Below are positions 31,943 through 59,157 of a stretch of DNA of 64,000 nucleotides, piece after piece. The stretch is from Luteimonas sp. S4-F44. Lineage in GTDB: Bacteria; Pseudomonadota; Gammaproteobacteria; Xanthomonadales; Xanthomonadaceae. The DNA is taken from the NCBI RefSeq assembly GCF_022637415.1, contig NZ_CP093340.1:1178001-1242000 (forward strand). The letters run 5' to 3'. Under the pieces are notes generated by a model. The model saw nothing but the letters and a program-made list of their open reading frames with translations, was not told the origin of the DNA and did not search any database. Each line of letters opens with the position of its first letter. Position 1 is the first letter of the stretch. Both the position numbers and the translations under genes were made by a program.

Positions 31943-31976
31943 CTGCGCGGTCTAGTTCGAATGTATGACCGCGCAG
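31943..31976. promoter_or_regulatory. Inverted repeat upstream of dctA
   Basis: CTGCGCGGTC (31943-31952) and GACCGCGCAG (31967-31976) form a perfect 10-bp inverted repeat with a 14-bp AT-richer spacer. It lies 28-61 bp before the dctA ATG and could be an operator for a dimeric regulator or an mRNA hairpin. Confidence 0.4.
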
Positions 31977-32003
31977 GACGGCGCGGTCTGGCAGGCTCGC
32001 CTC

Positions 32004-33416
32004 ATGCCTACCGATATCACGCCTCCGATCGCGCCCGACGCGACGCTCCGCACCGCCGTCCGCCCCCGCAAACCGCTGTGGCACCACCTCTACTTCTGGG
32101 TCCTGCTGGGGATTGCCGCCGGCATCGTCATCGGCCTGGCCGCGCCGCAGGTCGGCGCACAGATGAAATGGCTGGCCGACCTGTTCATCAAGCTGGTCAA
32201 GGTCGTCATCGCACCGACGATCTTCGCCACCGTGGCGGTCGGCATCGCCGGCCTGGGCAATCTCGCCAAGGCCGGCGGGCTGGCGCTCAAGACCGTGGTC
32301 TACTTCAACGTCACCACGGTGTTTGCGCTGGGCATCGGCCTGGTCGTGGTCAACCTGCTCGGACCCGGCCGCAACCTCGGCCTCGACATCGAGACCTTCG
32401 ACGCCTCGGCCGCGCAGGGCACGCTCGCCAGCGCAGGGGCTGCGGCCGGCGACGGCATCACCGGCTTCCTATTGCATCTGGTGCCCAGTTCGTTCTTCGC
32501 GGCCTTCGTCGAGGGCCAGCTGATCCAGGTCCTGGTGATGGCGATCCTGGTCGCCTGTGCGATCACGATGCTCGGCGAGCGCGGCAAGCCGGCGGTCGCC
32601 GCGCTCGACACGATCGCCCAGGTGATGTTCGGCGTGATCAAGATCGTGATGTGGTTCGCGCCGCTGGGCGCGATGGGCGGCATGGCGTTCACGATCGGCG
32701 AGTACGGCGGGGCGATCCTCGGCTCGCTCGGCTACTTCATGCTCAGCTTCTGGCTGACCTGTCTGCTGTTCCTGTTGCTGGTGCTCGGGCCGATCTGCTG
32801 GTGGTCGGGCTTCAGCGTATTCAAGTACATCCGCATGATCCGCGACGAACTGCTGATCGTGCTCGGCACCTCGTCGTCGGAAACCGTGCTGCCGCGCATG
32901 CTGGCCAAGCTCGAAGCAGCCGGTGTGCCCAAGTCGGTGGTCGGCCTGACGATTCCCACCGGGTACTCGTTCAACCTCGACGGCACCGCGATCTACATGG
33001 CGATGGGCGCGATCTTCATCGCGCAGGCCTTCGGGATCGAGGTGCCGATCGGCACGCAGATCGCGCTGCTGGTGTTCATGCTGATCTCCTCCAACGGCGC
33101 GGCGGGCGTGTCGGGCGCCGGACTGGTGACGCTGGCCGCCTCGCTGGCAGCGTTCGAAAGCGTGATTCCGCTGGCCGGCATCGCGCTGATCGTCGGCATC
33201 GACCGCTTTATGTCCGAAGGCCGCGCGCTGACCAACCTGACCGGCAACGGCATCGGTACCCTGGTGATCGCGCGCTGGACCGGCCAGCTCGACCGCGAGC
33301 GACTGGCGACGGTGCTCGACAACCCGCAGCTGGTCGACCCGGATCGGGTGCTGGCCGAGCAGGCGGCGCGCGATGCCGGCCCGTCGGTCGAGACGGCGCC
33401 GGCGCGGCCGGCCTGA
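32004..33416 (+). CDS. dctA: C4-dicarboxylate:cation symporter DctA
   Basis: Imports succinate, fumarate, malate and aspartate with protons or sodium. The 470-residue protein has the DAACS family layout: eight membrane segments and two re-entrant loops, LGTSSSETVLPRM (Ser-rich hairpin 1), PTGYSFNLDGTAIYM and SSNGAAGVSGAG. I use the ATG at 32004, since an earlier ATG (31965) lies inside the inverted repeat and adds an unconserved extension. It ends 260 bp before asnB. Aspartate uptake and asparagine synthesis would be a sensible pairing, but the asnB promoter is separate. Confidence 0.94.
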   Translation: MPTDITPPIAPDATLRTAVRPRKPLWHHLYFWVLLGIAAGIVIGLAAPQVGAQMKWLADLFIKLVKVVIAPTIFATVAVGIAGLGNLAKAGGLALKTVVYFNVTTVFALGIGLVVVNLLGPGRNLGLDIETFDASAAQGTLASAGAAAGDGITGFLLHLVPSSFFAAFVEGQLIQVLVMAILVACAITMLGERGKPAVAALDTIAQVMFGVIKIVMWFAPLGAMGGMAFTIGEYGGAILGSLGYFMLSFWLTCLLFLLLVLGPICWWSGFSVFKYIRMIRDELLIVLGTSSSETVLPRMLAKLEAAGVPKSVVGLTIPTGYSFNLDGTAIYMAMGAIFIAQAFGIEVPIGTQIALLVFMLISSNGAAGVSGAGLVTLAASLAAFESVIPLAGIALIVGIDRFMSEGRALTNLTGNGIGTLVIARWTGQLDRERLATVLDNPQLVDPDRVLAEQAARDAGPSVETAPARPA

Positions 33417-33447
33417 CGCACGGGGCGGGCGGTTGCGCACGCAACCG

Positions 33448-33476
33448 TTGCGCGGCGCGCGCGCACCGGGTAGGGT
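33448..33476 (+). promoter_or_regulatory. Promoter of the asnB leader
   Basis: TTGCGC (33448-33453) and TAGGGT (33471-33476) are 17 bp apart. Transcription would start about 33483, right at the leader ATG (33484), so the leader peptide may be translated from a leaderless or nearly leaderless RNA. If the real start is further upstream, AGGG at 33472-33475 could be its ribosome site. Confidence 0.5.
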
Positions 33477-33483
33477 CGATCCC

Positions 33484-33579
33484 ATGTCGCGCCTGTCCGC
33501 CCGCAATACCAACCGCAACGCCCCGCGCACGAATAATCATGCGCGGCCGAGGCGGGTGTGGGAGCGGGCGCAGGGATAA
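33484..33579 (+). CDS. Asparagine-rich leader peptide of asnB
   Basis: A 31-codon frame starts with ATG at 33484 and stops with TAA at 33577. Its first half reads M-S-R-L-S-A-R-N-T-N-R-N-A-P-R-T-N-N-H, with Asn at positions 8, 10, 12, 17 and 18, the last two in tandem (AAT AAT, 33532-33537). The second half is Arg-rich. Five Asn in 18 residues is far more than in the neighbouring proteins. A terminator follows 29 bases after the stop and asnB starts 97 bases after it. I read it as the sensor of an attenuator: ribosomes that stall on Asn codons when charged tRNA-Asn is scarce. Confidence 0.72.
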   Translation: MSRLSARNTNRNAPRTNNHARPRRVWERAQG

Positions 33580-33614
33580 GGCAACACGCGCAAGGCACCA
33601 GACACACCACCCGC
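33523..33614 (+). promoter_or_regulatory. Attenuator: pause hairpin and antiterminator pairing
   Basis: CCGCGCA (33523-33529) and TGCGCGG (33540-33546) form a 7-bp hairpin whose loop holds the tandem Asn codons. Downstream, GCGGGTG (33552-33558) can pair over 7 bp with CACCCGC (33608-33614), and two more pairs form past a one-base bulge. That pairing takes away the 5' arm of the terminator (33609-33618), so the two structures exclude each other. A ribosome stalled at the tandem Asn codons would cover up to about 33550 and leave 33552-33560 free; one that reaches the stop codon would cover it. Confidence 0.6.
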
Positions 33615-33637
33615 ATCGGCCGCGATGCGGGTTTTTT
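33609..33637 (+). terminator. Rho-independent terminator in the asnB leader
   Basis: A perfect 10-bp stem (ACCCGCATCG / CGATGCGGGT, 33609-33618 and 33623-33632) with a GCCG loop runs into TTTTTT (33632-33637). It lies after the leader peptide and 40 bases before asnB, so it must be read through for asnB to be expressed from this promoter. Confidence 0.9.
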
Positions 33638-33676
33638 GTGGCCCGCGCGCGGCTCCTCACCCCAAGGAGCCTCACC

Positions 33677-35383
33677 ATGTGTTCGATCTTCGGCATCTTC
33701 GGCCTGCAGCCCGGCGATGACATCGCCTCTCTGCGCCGGCAGGCGCTCGCCTGTTCGCAACGCCAGCGCCATCGCGGTCCCGACTGGAGCGGCGTGCACG
33801 CCGACGACCGGGCGATCCTCGTGCACGAGCGCCTGGCGATCGTCGATCCGGCCGGCGGCGCCCAGCCACTGCGCTCGGCCGATGGCGCACTGGTGCTGGC
33901 GGTCAACGGCGAGATCTACAACCATCAGGCATTGCGCGCCGACCTGCCTGCGCCCTATGCGTTCACGACCGCGTCCGACTGCGAGGTGATCAACGCGCTG
34001 TATCGCGAGCATGCGGCCGACCCTGCGGGCCCAACGACCTGGCTCGAACAGCTCAACGGCATCTTCGCGTTCGCGCTGTGGGACCGCACCTCCGGCCGCG
34101 CGATCATCGCCCGCGATCCGATCGGCGTGGTGCCGCTGTACTGGGGCCACGACCGCGAGGGCCGGCTGCGTGTGGCCTCGGAGATGAAGGCGCTGGTCGA
34201 CAGCTGCGCCGATGTCGCGCAATTTCCGCCCGGCCACTGGTACGACAGCGCGACCGGCACGCTGACGCGCTACTACGCGCGCCCCTGGCGCGAGCACGAC
34301 GCGGTGGCCGGGCACGCGCCGTCGTTGCCGGCGCTGCGCGAGGCCTTCGAGGCCGCCGTGCATCGGCAGCTGATGACCGACGTGCCGTACGGCGTGCTGT
34401 TGTCGGGCGGGCTGGATTCCTCGCTGGTCGCCGCGGTCGCCGCGCGCTATGCGCGCCATCGCATCGAGGACGGCGACCGCAGCGAGGCCTGGTGGCCGCG
34501 GTTGCATTCGTTCGCGATCGGCCTGACTGGCTCGCCGGACCTTGCCGCCGCCGCGGTCGCGGCTGAGGCGCTGGGCACCGTGCACCACGGCTTCGAGTAC
34601 ACGTTCGAAGAAGGCCTTGACGCGTTGCCGGACGTGATCCGGCACATCGAGACCTTCGACGTGACCACGATCCGCGCGTCCACGCCGATGTTCCTGCTCG
34701 CGCGGCGGATCAAGGCCATGGGCGTGAAGATGGTGCTGTCGGGCGAGGGCTCTGATGAGATCTTCGGCGGCTACCTGTACTTCCACAAGGCGCCCGATGC
34801 GCGGCAGTTCCACGAGGAACTGGTGCGCAAGCTCGACGCCCTGCATGGCTACGACTGCCTGCGCGCGAACAAGGCGATGATGGCCTGGGGCGTCGAGCCG
34901 CGCGTGCCATTCCTCGACCGTGAGTTCCTCGACGTGGCGATGGACATCGACGCCGCGTACAAGATGATCGACCGCGGCAGCGAGGAGTATCAGCGCATGG
35001 AGAAGGGCCTGCTGCGCGCCGCATTCGACGGGGCATTGCCCGACGAGATCCTGTGGCGGCAGAAGGAGCAGTTCAGCGACGGCGTGGGCTACGGCTGGAT
35101 CGACGGCCTCAAGGCACACGCCGAGGCCCAGGTCAGCGACCGCGAGCTGGCGGCCGCCGCGAGCCGCTTCCCGCACGCGCCGCCGCAGACCAAGGAGGCG
35201 TATCTGTATCGCAGCCTGTTCGAACAGGCGTTCCCGACGCCGGCCGCAGCGGCGACCGTGCCGGGCGGCAAGTCGATCGCGTGTTCGTCGCCCGCCGCGA
35301 TCGCCTGGGACGCCGCGTTCGCGAACGCCGCCGACCCGTCGGGCCGCGCGGTCGCCGGCGTGCACAACGCCGCGGTGGCCTAA
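33677..35383 (+). CDS. asnB: Glutamine-hydrolysing asparagine synthetase B
   Basis: Makes asparagine from aspartate, glutamine and ATP. The 568-residue protein begins M-C-S-I-F, exposing the catalytic Cys after Met removal. The N-terminal amidotransferase (about 2-190) has RHRGPDWSG, ERLAIVDP and AVNGEIYNH. The synthetase half has the PP-loop LLSGGLDSSL, then LSGEGSDEIFGGY and the VEPRVPFLDREFL substrate loop. Length and order match E. coli AsnB (554). The AAGGAG ribosome site (33664-33669) is the strongest in the area. An Asn-codon leader with terminator precedes it, so expression should fall when asparagine is plentiful. Confidence 0.97.
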   Translation: MCSIFGIFGLQPGDDIASLRRQALACSQRQRHRGPDWSGVHADDRAILVHERLAIVDPAGGAQPLRSADGALVLAVNGEIYNHQALRADLPAPYAFTTASDCEVINALYREHAADPAGPTTWLEQLNGIFAFALWDRTSGRAIIARDPIGVVPLYWGHDREGRLRVASEMKALVDSCADVAQFPPGHWYDSATGTLTRYYARPWREHDAVAGHAPSLPALREAFEAAVHRQLMTDVPYGVLLSGGLDSSLVAAVAARYARHRIEDGDRSEAWWPRLHSFAIGLTGSPDLAAAAVAAEALGTVHHGFEYTFEEGLDALPDVIRHIETFDVTTIRASTPMFLLARRIKAMGVKMVLSGEGSDEIFGGYLYFHKAPDARQFHEELVRKLDALHGYDCLRANKAMMAWGVEPRVPFLDREFLDVAMDIDAAYKMIDRGSEEYQRMEKGLLRAAFDGALPDEILWRQKEQFSDGVGYGWIDGLKAHAEAQVSDRELAAAASRFPHAPPQTKEAYLYRSLFEQAFPTPAAAATVPGGKSIACSSPAAIAWDAAFANAADPSGRAVAGVHNAAVA

Positions 35384-52816: not shown

Positions 52817-52903
52817 GCCCAGGTGGCGGAATTGGTAGACGCACTAGCTTCAGGTGCTAGCGGGGGCAACTCCGTGGAGGTTCGAGTCCTCTCCTGGGCA
52901 CCA
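52817..52903 (+). tRNA. tRNA-Leu (anticodon CAG), copy 1
   Basis: An 87-nt class II tRNA with a long variable arm (GGGGGCAACTCC), acceptor GCCCAGG/CCTGGGC, encoded CCA and anticodon stem-loop CTAGC-TTCAGGT-GCTAG, which reads CTG, the main Leu codon here. Identical to the copy at 54455-54541. Confidence 0.97.
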
Positions 52904-54454: not shown

Positions 54455-54541
54455 GCCCAGGTGGCGGAATTGGTAGACGCACTAGCTTCAGGTGCTAGCG
54501 GGGGCAACTCCGTGGAGGTTCGAGTCCTCTCCTGGGCACCA
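54455..54541 (+). tRNA. tRNA-Leu (anticodon CAG), copy 2
   Basis: Identical in all 87 bases to the copy at 52817-52903, with its own promoter and terminator, so both should be expressed. Confidence 0.97.
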
Positions 54542-58662: not shown

Positions 58663-58776
58663 CGGCGACGCGTCCGACACGGCGCGTCCGACTACAGCGC
58701 GTCCGATCACGGCCGCGGCGGGTCAGGCCGCGGTCATCCCTCGCGTCATGGCCTGCGCCAGAATGCCGCGCAGGAA

Positions 58777-58820
58777 GCGGGGACGACCCCGCCGCTCCAT
58801 CCACATCCGGGGACGGCCCC
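58777..58820 (+). promoter_or_regulatory. Guanidine-II (mini-ykkC) riboswitch
   Basis: Two small hairpins with the diagnostic ACGR loops stand in tandem: GCGGGG-ACGA-CCCCGC (58777-58792) and GGGG-ACGG-CCCC (58809-58820), 16 bases apart. The GGAGG ribosome site of sugE (58832-58836) follows 12 bases later. In the known class, guanidinium binds both loops and exposes the ribosome site. The gene downstream is the expected target, a guanidinium exporter. Confidence 0.9.
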
Positions 58821-58842
58821 ATCGCCACGATGGAGGTGCGTC

Positions 58843-59157
58843 ATGTCCTGGATCATTCTCGTACTGGCCGGTCTGTTCGAGATCGCATGGGCGATCGGCC
58901 TGAAATACACCGAAGGCTTCACGCGGTTCTGGCCCACGGTCGGCACGGTGGCATCAATGGTGATCAGCGTCGGCCTGCTGGGGATCGCGATGCGCACGTT
59001 GCCGGTCGGCACCGCGTACGCGGTCTGGGTCGGCATCGGCGCGGTCGGCACTGTGATCCTGGGCATCGTGCTGATGGGCGATGCGGCCAGTCCCGGGCGC
59101 CTGATCAGCCTCGCGTTGATCGTTGCCGGCATCATTGGGCTCAAGCTCGCCAGCTGA
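58843..59157 (+). CDS. sugE: Guanidinium exporter SugE/Gdx
   Basis: A 104-residue SMR-family protein with four membrane helices that exports guanidinium in exchange for protons, acting as a dimer. The essential Glu13 is in helix 1 ([16 protein letters not shown]), which with the G/A-W-x-x-G-L-K-Y pattern marks the Gdx subtype rather than EmrE. The upstream guanidine-II riboswitch confirms the assignment. The ribosome site GGAGG is six bases before the ATG. Confidence 0.96.

Follow-up and report, generated by a model that had tools for sequence, protein, structure and literature searches.

A predicted asparagine-responsive transcription attenuator upstream of asnB in Luteimonas and its relatives

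The asparagine synthase gene asnB of Luteimonas sp. S4-F44 is preceded by a short open reading frame rich in asparagine codons and by an intrinsic terminator, which raises the question of whether translation of the frame decides whether the gene is transcribed. We approached this question in the window (the whole stretch of 64,000 nucleotides that was analysed, positions 1,178,001 to 1,242,000 of contig NZ_CP093340.1) and through comparison with the regions upstream of asnB in related genomes. Judged from this comparison, the region very probably forms a ribosome-mediated transcription attenuator through which asparaginyl-tRNA supply governs asnB. Asparagine synthesis would probably be switched on by ribosomes stalling for lack of asparagine, since the leader and the terminator recur before asnB in most close relatives.

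Layout of the asnB leader region

The features of the region are as follows, with the basis of each in brackets.

33448..33453, plus strand: candidate -35 element, TTGCGC (sequence; TTG spacing common to relatives)
33471..33476, plus strand: candidate -10 element, TAGGGT, 7 bases 5' of the leader ATG (sequence; spacing in relatives)
33484..33579, plus strand: leader open reading frame, 31 codons plus TAA, probably leaderless (sequence and relatives)
33523..33546, plus strand: hairpin 1, 33523-33529 paired with 33540-33546 (fold; covariation in the same register)
33544..33558, plus strand: segment 2, which provides the antiterminator's 5' strand, within the last leader codons (pairing, recoding, covariation)
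33608..33622, plus strand: segment 3, which serves both as the antiterminator's 3' strand and as the terminator's 5' arm (pairing, recoding, covariation)
33609..33637, plus strand: intrinsic terminator, stem 33609-33618/33623-33632 and T run 33632-33637 (terminator scan, covariation)
33664..33669, plus strand: Shine-Dalgarno sequence of asnB, AAGGAG, outside the terminator (sequence)
33677..35383, plus strand: asnB, full-length asparagine synthase B of the glutamine-hydrolysing type, 568 aa (NF006949, 845.1 bits, cut-off 499; TIGR01536, 414.7 bits, cut-off 267.1)

The initial annotation of this DNA had picked out a promoter-like pair (TTGCGC and TAGGGT, separated by 17 bases), a frame of 31 codons with its stop at 33577, a perfect 10-bp terminator with six T and the start of asnB at 33677, and all four are confirmed by the sequence. 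The leader frame runs from the ATG at 33484 to the TAA at 33577-33579 and encodes the peptide MSRLSARNTNRNAPRTNNHARPRRVWERAQG, with asparagine at codons 8, 10, 12, 17 and 18; codons 17-18 are a tandem AAT AAT held in the loop of hairpin 1, which in turn shares 33544-33546 with the antiterminator. The terminator, with a stem of 10 pairs and the loop GCCG, is the stronger of two terminator-like sites found in 701 bases, as compared with 0.2 in shuffled sequences. The annotation had also proposed that GCGGGTG (33552-33558) pairs with CACCCGC (33608-33614); the two are indeed complementary, but the helix is longer than described and joins 33544-33558 to 33608-33622 through 14 of 15 possible pairs with one G-A mismatch at 33551/33615, as read by hand, an ungapped pairing scan having returned only the 7-pair half. 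This is above chance: when the codons at the end of the leader were recoded synonymously 200 times, 1% of the versions paired as strongly with the terminator arm.

The genomic context is consistent with a control of this kind. By its relatives the window falls within the Lysobacteraceae, and the closest named asnB is that of Luteimonas sp. FCS-9 (96%). The genome of the organism itself holds a single asnB match, no match to asnA and an asparaginyl-tRNA synthetase (AsnRS) scoring above its family cut-off. With AsnRS present and asnA not found, charging of tRNA-Asn should proceed from free asparagine in this organism, and with one asnB it should depend on that gene absent asparagine uptake. The gene under the predicted control would thus supply the very amino acid that is sensed.

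A sigma-70 scan found no promoter before the leader, and the promoter is called because its spacing is common to relatives. Of 98 distinct loci, 97 have TTG at positions -37 to -35 from the leader ATG, and TANNNT lies 6-8 bases from the ATG in 54 of the 55 loci having such a site (102 scanned; the site nearest to 7 chosen), or in 50 of 51 occurrences among the 98 distinct loci, evidence that is partly circular as leader start codons were picked partly by TTG (within -40 to -28) and by -10-like marks upstream. A gap of 6-8 bases is the usual distance from a -10 element to the transcription start. Less circular are the narrow positions of these elements, the C immediately before the A of the ATG (97% of 98 loci) and the rarity of a Shine-Dalgarno-like motif before the leader, found at 3 of 98 loci as against 84 of 98 before asnB. 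Promoter spacing and the missing Shine-Dalgarno motif together suggest that the leader is leaderless, with a predicted transcript from A33484 or an adjacent base. A palindrome, CGCAACCGTTGCG (33440-33452), overlaps the candidate -35 element and could be a regulator site; AACNGTT occurs somewhere upstream in 50 of 102 loci, in some of them as TTTGCAACCGTTGCAAA.

Conservation of the leader and of the RNA pairings

The initial annotation had called for an alignment of Lysobacter, Luteimonas, Xanthomonas and Stenotrophomonas; in an extended version of this comparison the asparagine codons, the terminator and the two mutually exclusive pairings are conserved. The set comprised 330-500 bases 5' of asnB at 132 loci whose asnB is at least 72% identical, some species being present twice. 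An Asn-rich short frame was recognised by eye in 126 of these 132 upstream regions (near-duplicates included). Scored as the number of asparagines plus tandem asparagines within 16 residues, 120 of 132 loci reach at least 5, a value attained by 23 of 2640 dinucleotide shuffles and by none of the 132 reverse strands. The leaders of 102 loci devote 613 of 3385 codons to asparagine, as against 1.48% in asnB bodies, and AAT makes up 283 of these 613 codons but 105 of 776 asparagine codons in asnB itself. These loci share a short leader frame enriched in codons for the cognate amino acid, examples being those of Pseudoxanthomonas kalamensis (MFANNANNANRNNPCANNRARPMRVRD) and Rhodanobacter glycinis (...NNNRANNNANRWRARA). 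Six of the 132 loci lack a leader: three (L093, L094, L102) belong to the same genus by kinship, and the other three (L029, L042, L070) carry titles of other groups. At L093 and L094 the region 5' of asnB is filled by GC-rich repeated and inverted stretches, e.g. GCCGGCCATGGATGGCCGGC.

Covariation was assessed in two alignments, A1 (52 of the 98 leaders) and A2 (46 of 98), against shuffles that do not keep relatedness. A permissive scan places an intrinsic terminator between leader and asnB at 99 of 102 loci, and the remaining three show one by eye, two of those missed (L054, L060) having weak T runs. None of 500 shuffles attains the covariation of the terminator in A1, nor in A2, where one slid version covaries slightly higher (0.155 vs 0.143). 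Hairpin 1, within the coding region, covaries in A1 beyond all 500 shuffles, a result that covers the 52 leaders of that alignment.

The antiterminator, which would exclude the terminator, appears to be selected as a pairing, with covariation in A1 not above shuffles (259 of 500 reach the value). Across 98 distinct loci its mean energy is -24.4 kcal/mol, compared with -19.1 kcal/mol for synonymous recodings and -20.1 kcal/mol when partners are randomly swapped; z is below zero in 85 of 98 loci, and the recoding test falls below 5% in only 39 of 98. In A1, 82.7% of alignment cells pair, as against 31-47% when the register is slid, and in A2 none of 500 shuffles covaries as strongly, the count of pairs with a change in both partners being not unusual there (138 of 500). 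The helix is unbroken over 14 pairs in L085, L086, L087 and L089 and over 13 in several Xanthomonas; L001 and L082-L084 share the interruption seen in the window.

The coupling between peptide and pairing is visible in 17 loci whose leader end matches one pattern. Where segment 2 carries CAG (LPQAGD-like), the terminator reads GGCCTGC in 6 of 6 loci, two of which are perhaps one species, and where it carries CGG (LPRAGD-like), the terminator contains CCCGC in 10 of 11 loci, the eleventh having no match. Through this base change the terminator keeps a U-G pair while the antiterminator exchanges G-C for A-U, and the amino acid is changed. About a hundred diverged natural variants show the antiterminator pairing shaping the leader peptide (Arg vs Gln).

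A metabolite-binding riboswitch, for asparagine or another ligand, could in principle control such a terminator with no need for leader translation, and RNA structure kept 5' of a biosynthetic gene would fit it. What is conserved, however, is the open frame, within which the asparagine codons vary in order and number between leaders; a search of the region against Rfam gave no family above its gathering score (six lax matches fall far below), and no aptamer-like core was seen beyond the attenuator stems. We regard this explanation as very unlikely.

Predicted mechanism of attenuation

The start site, translation, stalling, termination and asparagine response of the leader are inferred here from sequence and comparison, and the attenuator would operate as follows. 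The transcript would begin with the leader ATG (33484) or immediately beside it, and the ribosome would load on a bare 5' end. When charged tRNA-Asn is plentiful, it would pass the asparagine codons and segment 2, and hairpin 1 would re-form behind it; the terminator (segments 3:4) could then fold, stopping RNA polymerase near 33637. With asparagine scarce, the ribosome would stall at asparagine codons 17-18 and prevent hairpin 1, leaving segment 2 (33544-33558) mostly free to pair with segment 3 (33608-33622) while segment 4 is still to be synthesised. With segments 2:3 paired the terminator would not fold, and asnB would be transcribed.

The weak point of this scheme lies in how the RNA folds and in what the ribosome covers. 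The initial annotation had a ribosome at the stop codon cover the segment, a detail that does not hold well: the antiterminator ends 18 bases before the stop codon and would be poorly covered by such a ribosome, so that the re-forming of hairpin 1 must do part of the work. Equilibrium folding with blocked ribosome footprints did not reproduce the switch; the terminator persists even with a ribosome on the asparagine codons, and an antiterminator-like fold appears when only the stop-codon footprint is blocked. Since equilibrium folds keep the terminator, the mechanism must be kinetic, and the order of synthesis (segment 2 meeting 3 before 4), combined with hairpin 1 re-forming behind the ribosome, is the likely answer.

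The leader might instead report slow ribosomes or poor leaderless initiation, sensing translation speed in general rather than asparagine. A leaderless start is probable and AAT is the rarer codon, as this reading would have it; the enriched amino acid is nonetheless asparagine and the product of the gene makes asparagine, and we consider general speed sensing very unlikely.

Range of the element and relation to known systems

The upstream neighbour varies between genomes, whereas the element stays with asnB. In the window a DctA-like gene (31965-33416) stands directly 5' of the leader on the same strand, so that the terminator might belong to that gene and the Asn frame be a chance occurrence. 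A DctA-like gene is however found upstream in just 10 of 89 loci chosen for a leader and at least 1400 bases upstream, all 10 being close relatives, and the asparagine score of the leader is far above that of shuffles, which makes this account scarcely credible.

Among 53 upstream regions of asnB genes below 72% identity, one (L158, genome G118, family f7) carries a leader, which together with its promoter looks different from those of the close relatives and may reflect inheritance or a second origin. This leader, MFAIYNTINTTNNRLLRSAGSF, does not have a leaderless look and is accompanied by a strong terminator, the two together lying about 144 to 20 bases before asnB. At L157 the start of asnB is uncertain, and at L076 a stretch scoring 6 within a long upstream frame was judged to be no leader. 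A survey of family f7 (39 genomes, 32 with asnB, 30 fetched including G118) yielded no further leader. A class-wide draw of 185 genomes gave four asnB at threshold, three from the organism's own family and one with no leader, and with so few genes the range outside the order is poorly sampled. Seven upstream regions of asnS contained no Asn leader (highest score 3). An RNA model returned 31 matches of at least 66 bits in 61 genomes, each 5' of asnB, with the next score at 44.7 bits; inspection of seven second-tier sites gave a top asparagine score of 3 and no leader. This model was built from Lysobacteraceae leaders, several of them from the searched genomes, and is weak on the known leaders of other families (G037, G048, G056, G057), so that differently formed copies could be missed.

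Asparagine genes are controlled elsewhere by T-box leaders, which in Firmicutes sense tRNA-Asn charging by binding the tRNA directly to RNA with no open reading frame; a T-box here is extremely unlikely, as the T-box covariance model gave no match at E values up to 5 and the asparagine codons sit in an open frame with a stop.

In proteobacteria, ribosome-mediated attenuation is established for the his, trp, leu, thr, ilv and phe operons. The initial annotation had recognised in this leader the logic of the his, leu, thr and trp systems, a prediction that the comparison strongly supports. The known attenuators (see also PMC1183508 and PMC7298713) likewise have a leader rich in codons for the amino acid of the operon and mutually exclusive hairpin 1, antiterminator and terminator. 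Unlike them, the window leader is predicted to sense asparagine and to control a single asparagine synthase, it has its segment 2 within the final codons of the frame, and it appears to be leaderless. A parallel for the last property is the trpL attenuator of Sinorhizobium meliloti, whose RNA has the leader ATG at its very 5' end and is a small leaderless mRNA (PMC7298713), as is predicted from spacing for the asnB leader. The trpL system differs in concerning tryptophan, in belonging to an alphaproteobacterium and in trans action, both its RNA (rnTrpL) and its peptide (peTrpL) being reported to act in trans. By analogy, the terminated asnB leader RNA (about 150 bases) and the Asn-rich peptide might also act in trans on other mRNAs, an extension that we consider unlikely; if true, Lysobacteraceae and Rhodanobacteraceae would share a molecule that signals asparagine starvation.

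The best reading of the sequence evidence is that the asnB leader represents a new specificity, in amino acid and gene, of a known attenuator type. The expectation of the initial annotation that an asparagine leader would be new or little described is in line with our literature search, in which no report of an attenuator for asparagine came up; it may have been predicted before, one attenuation survey (Lopatovskaya 2010) lying outside that search. The available parts of PMC2965389 and PMC4833913 do not mention asnB, and neither Rfam, NCBIfam nor Pfam (three leader peptides) holds a family for the leader or its region, the best Pfam match (E 0.29) being below cut-off. Asparagine would thereby be added to the amino acids that ribosome-mediated attenuation can sense, and in Xanthomonas, Stenotrophomonas, Lysobacter, Luteimonas, Rhodanobacter and Dyella asnB gains a predicted control that is directly testable. 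The probable leaderless start also offers a natural test of how RNA polymerase is kept up with by a ribosome that loads on a bare 5' end.

Elsewhere in the window, a Guanidine-II riboswitch (58775-58821, 50.2 bits) lies upstream of a frame of 104 aa (58843-59157), which by eye resembles a small multidrug-resistance transporter of the Gdx type. Two tRNA-Leu(CAG) genes (52817-52903 and 54455-54541), whose downstream sequences and terminators are nearly identical, flank a coding stretch that is transporter-like by eye, and the paired genes with their near-identical flanks suggest that a segment was duplicated or that DNA was inserted at a tRNA.
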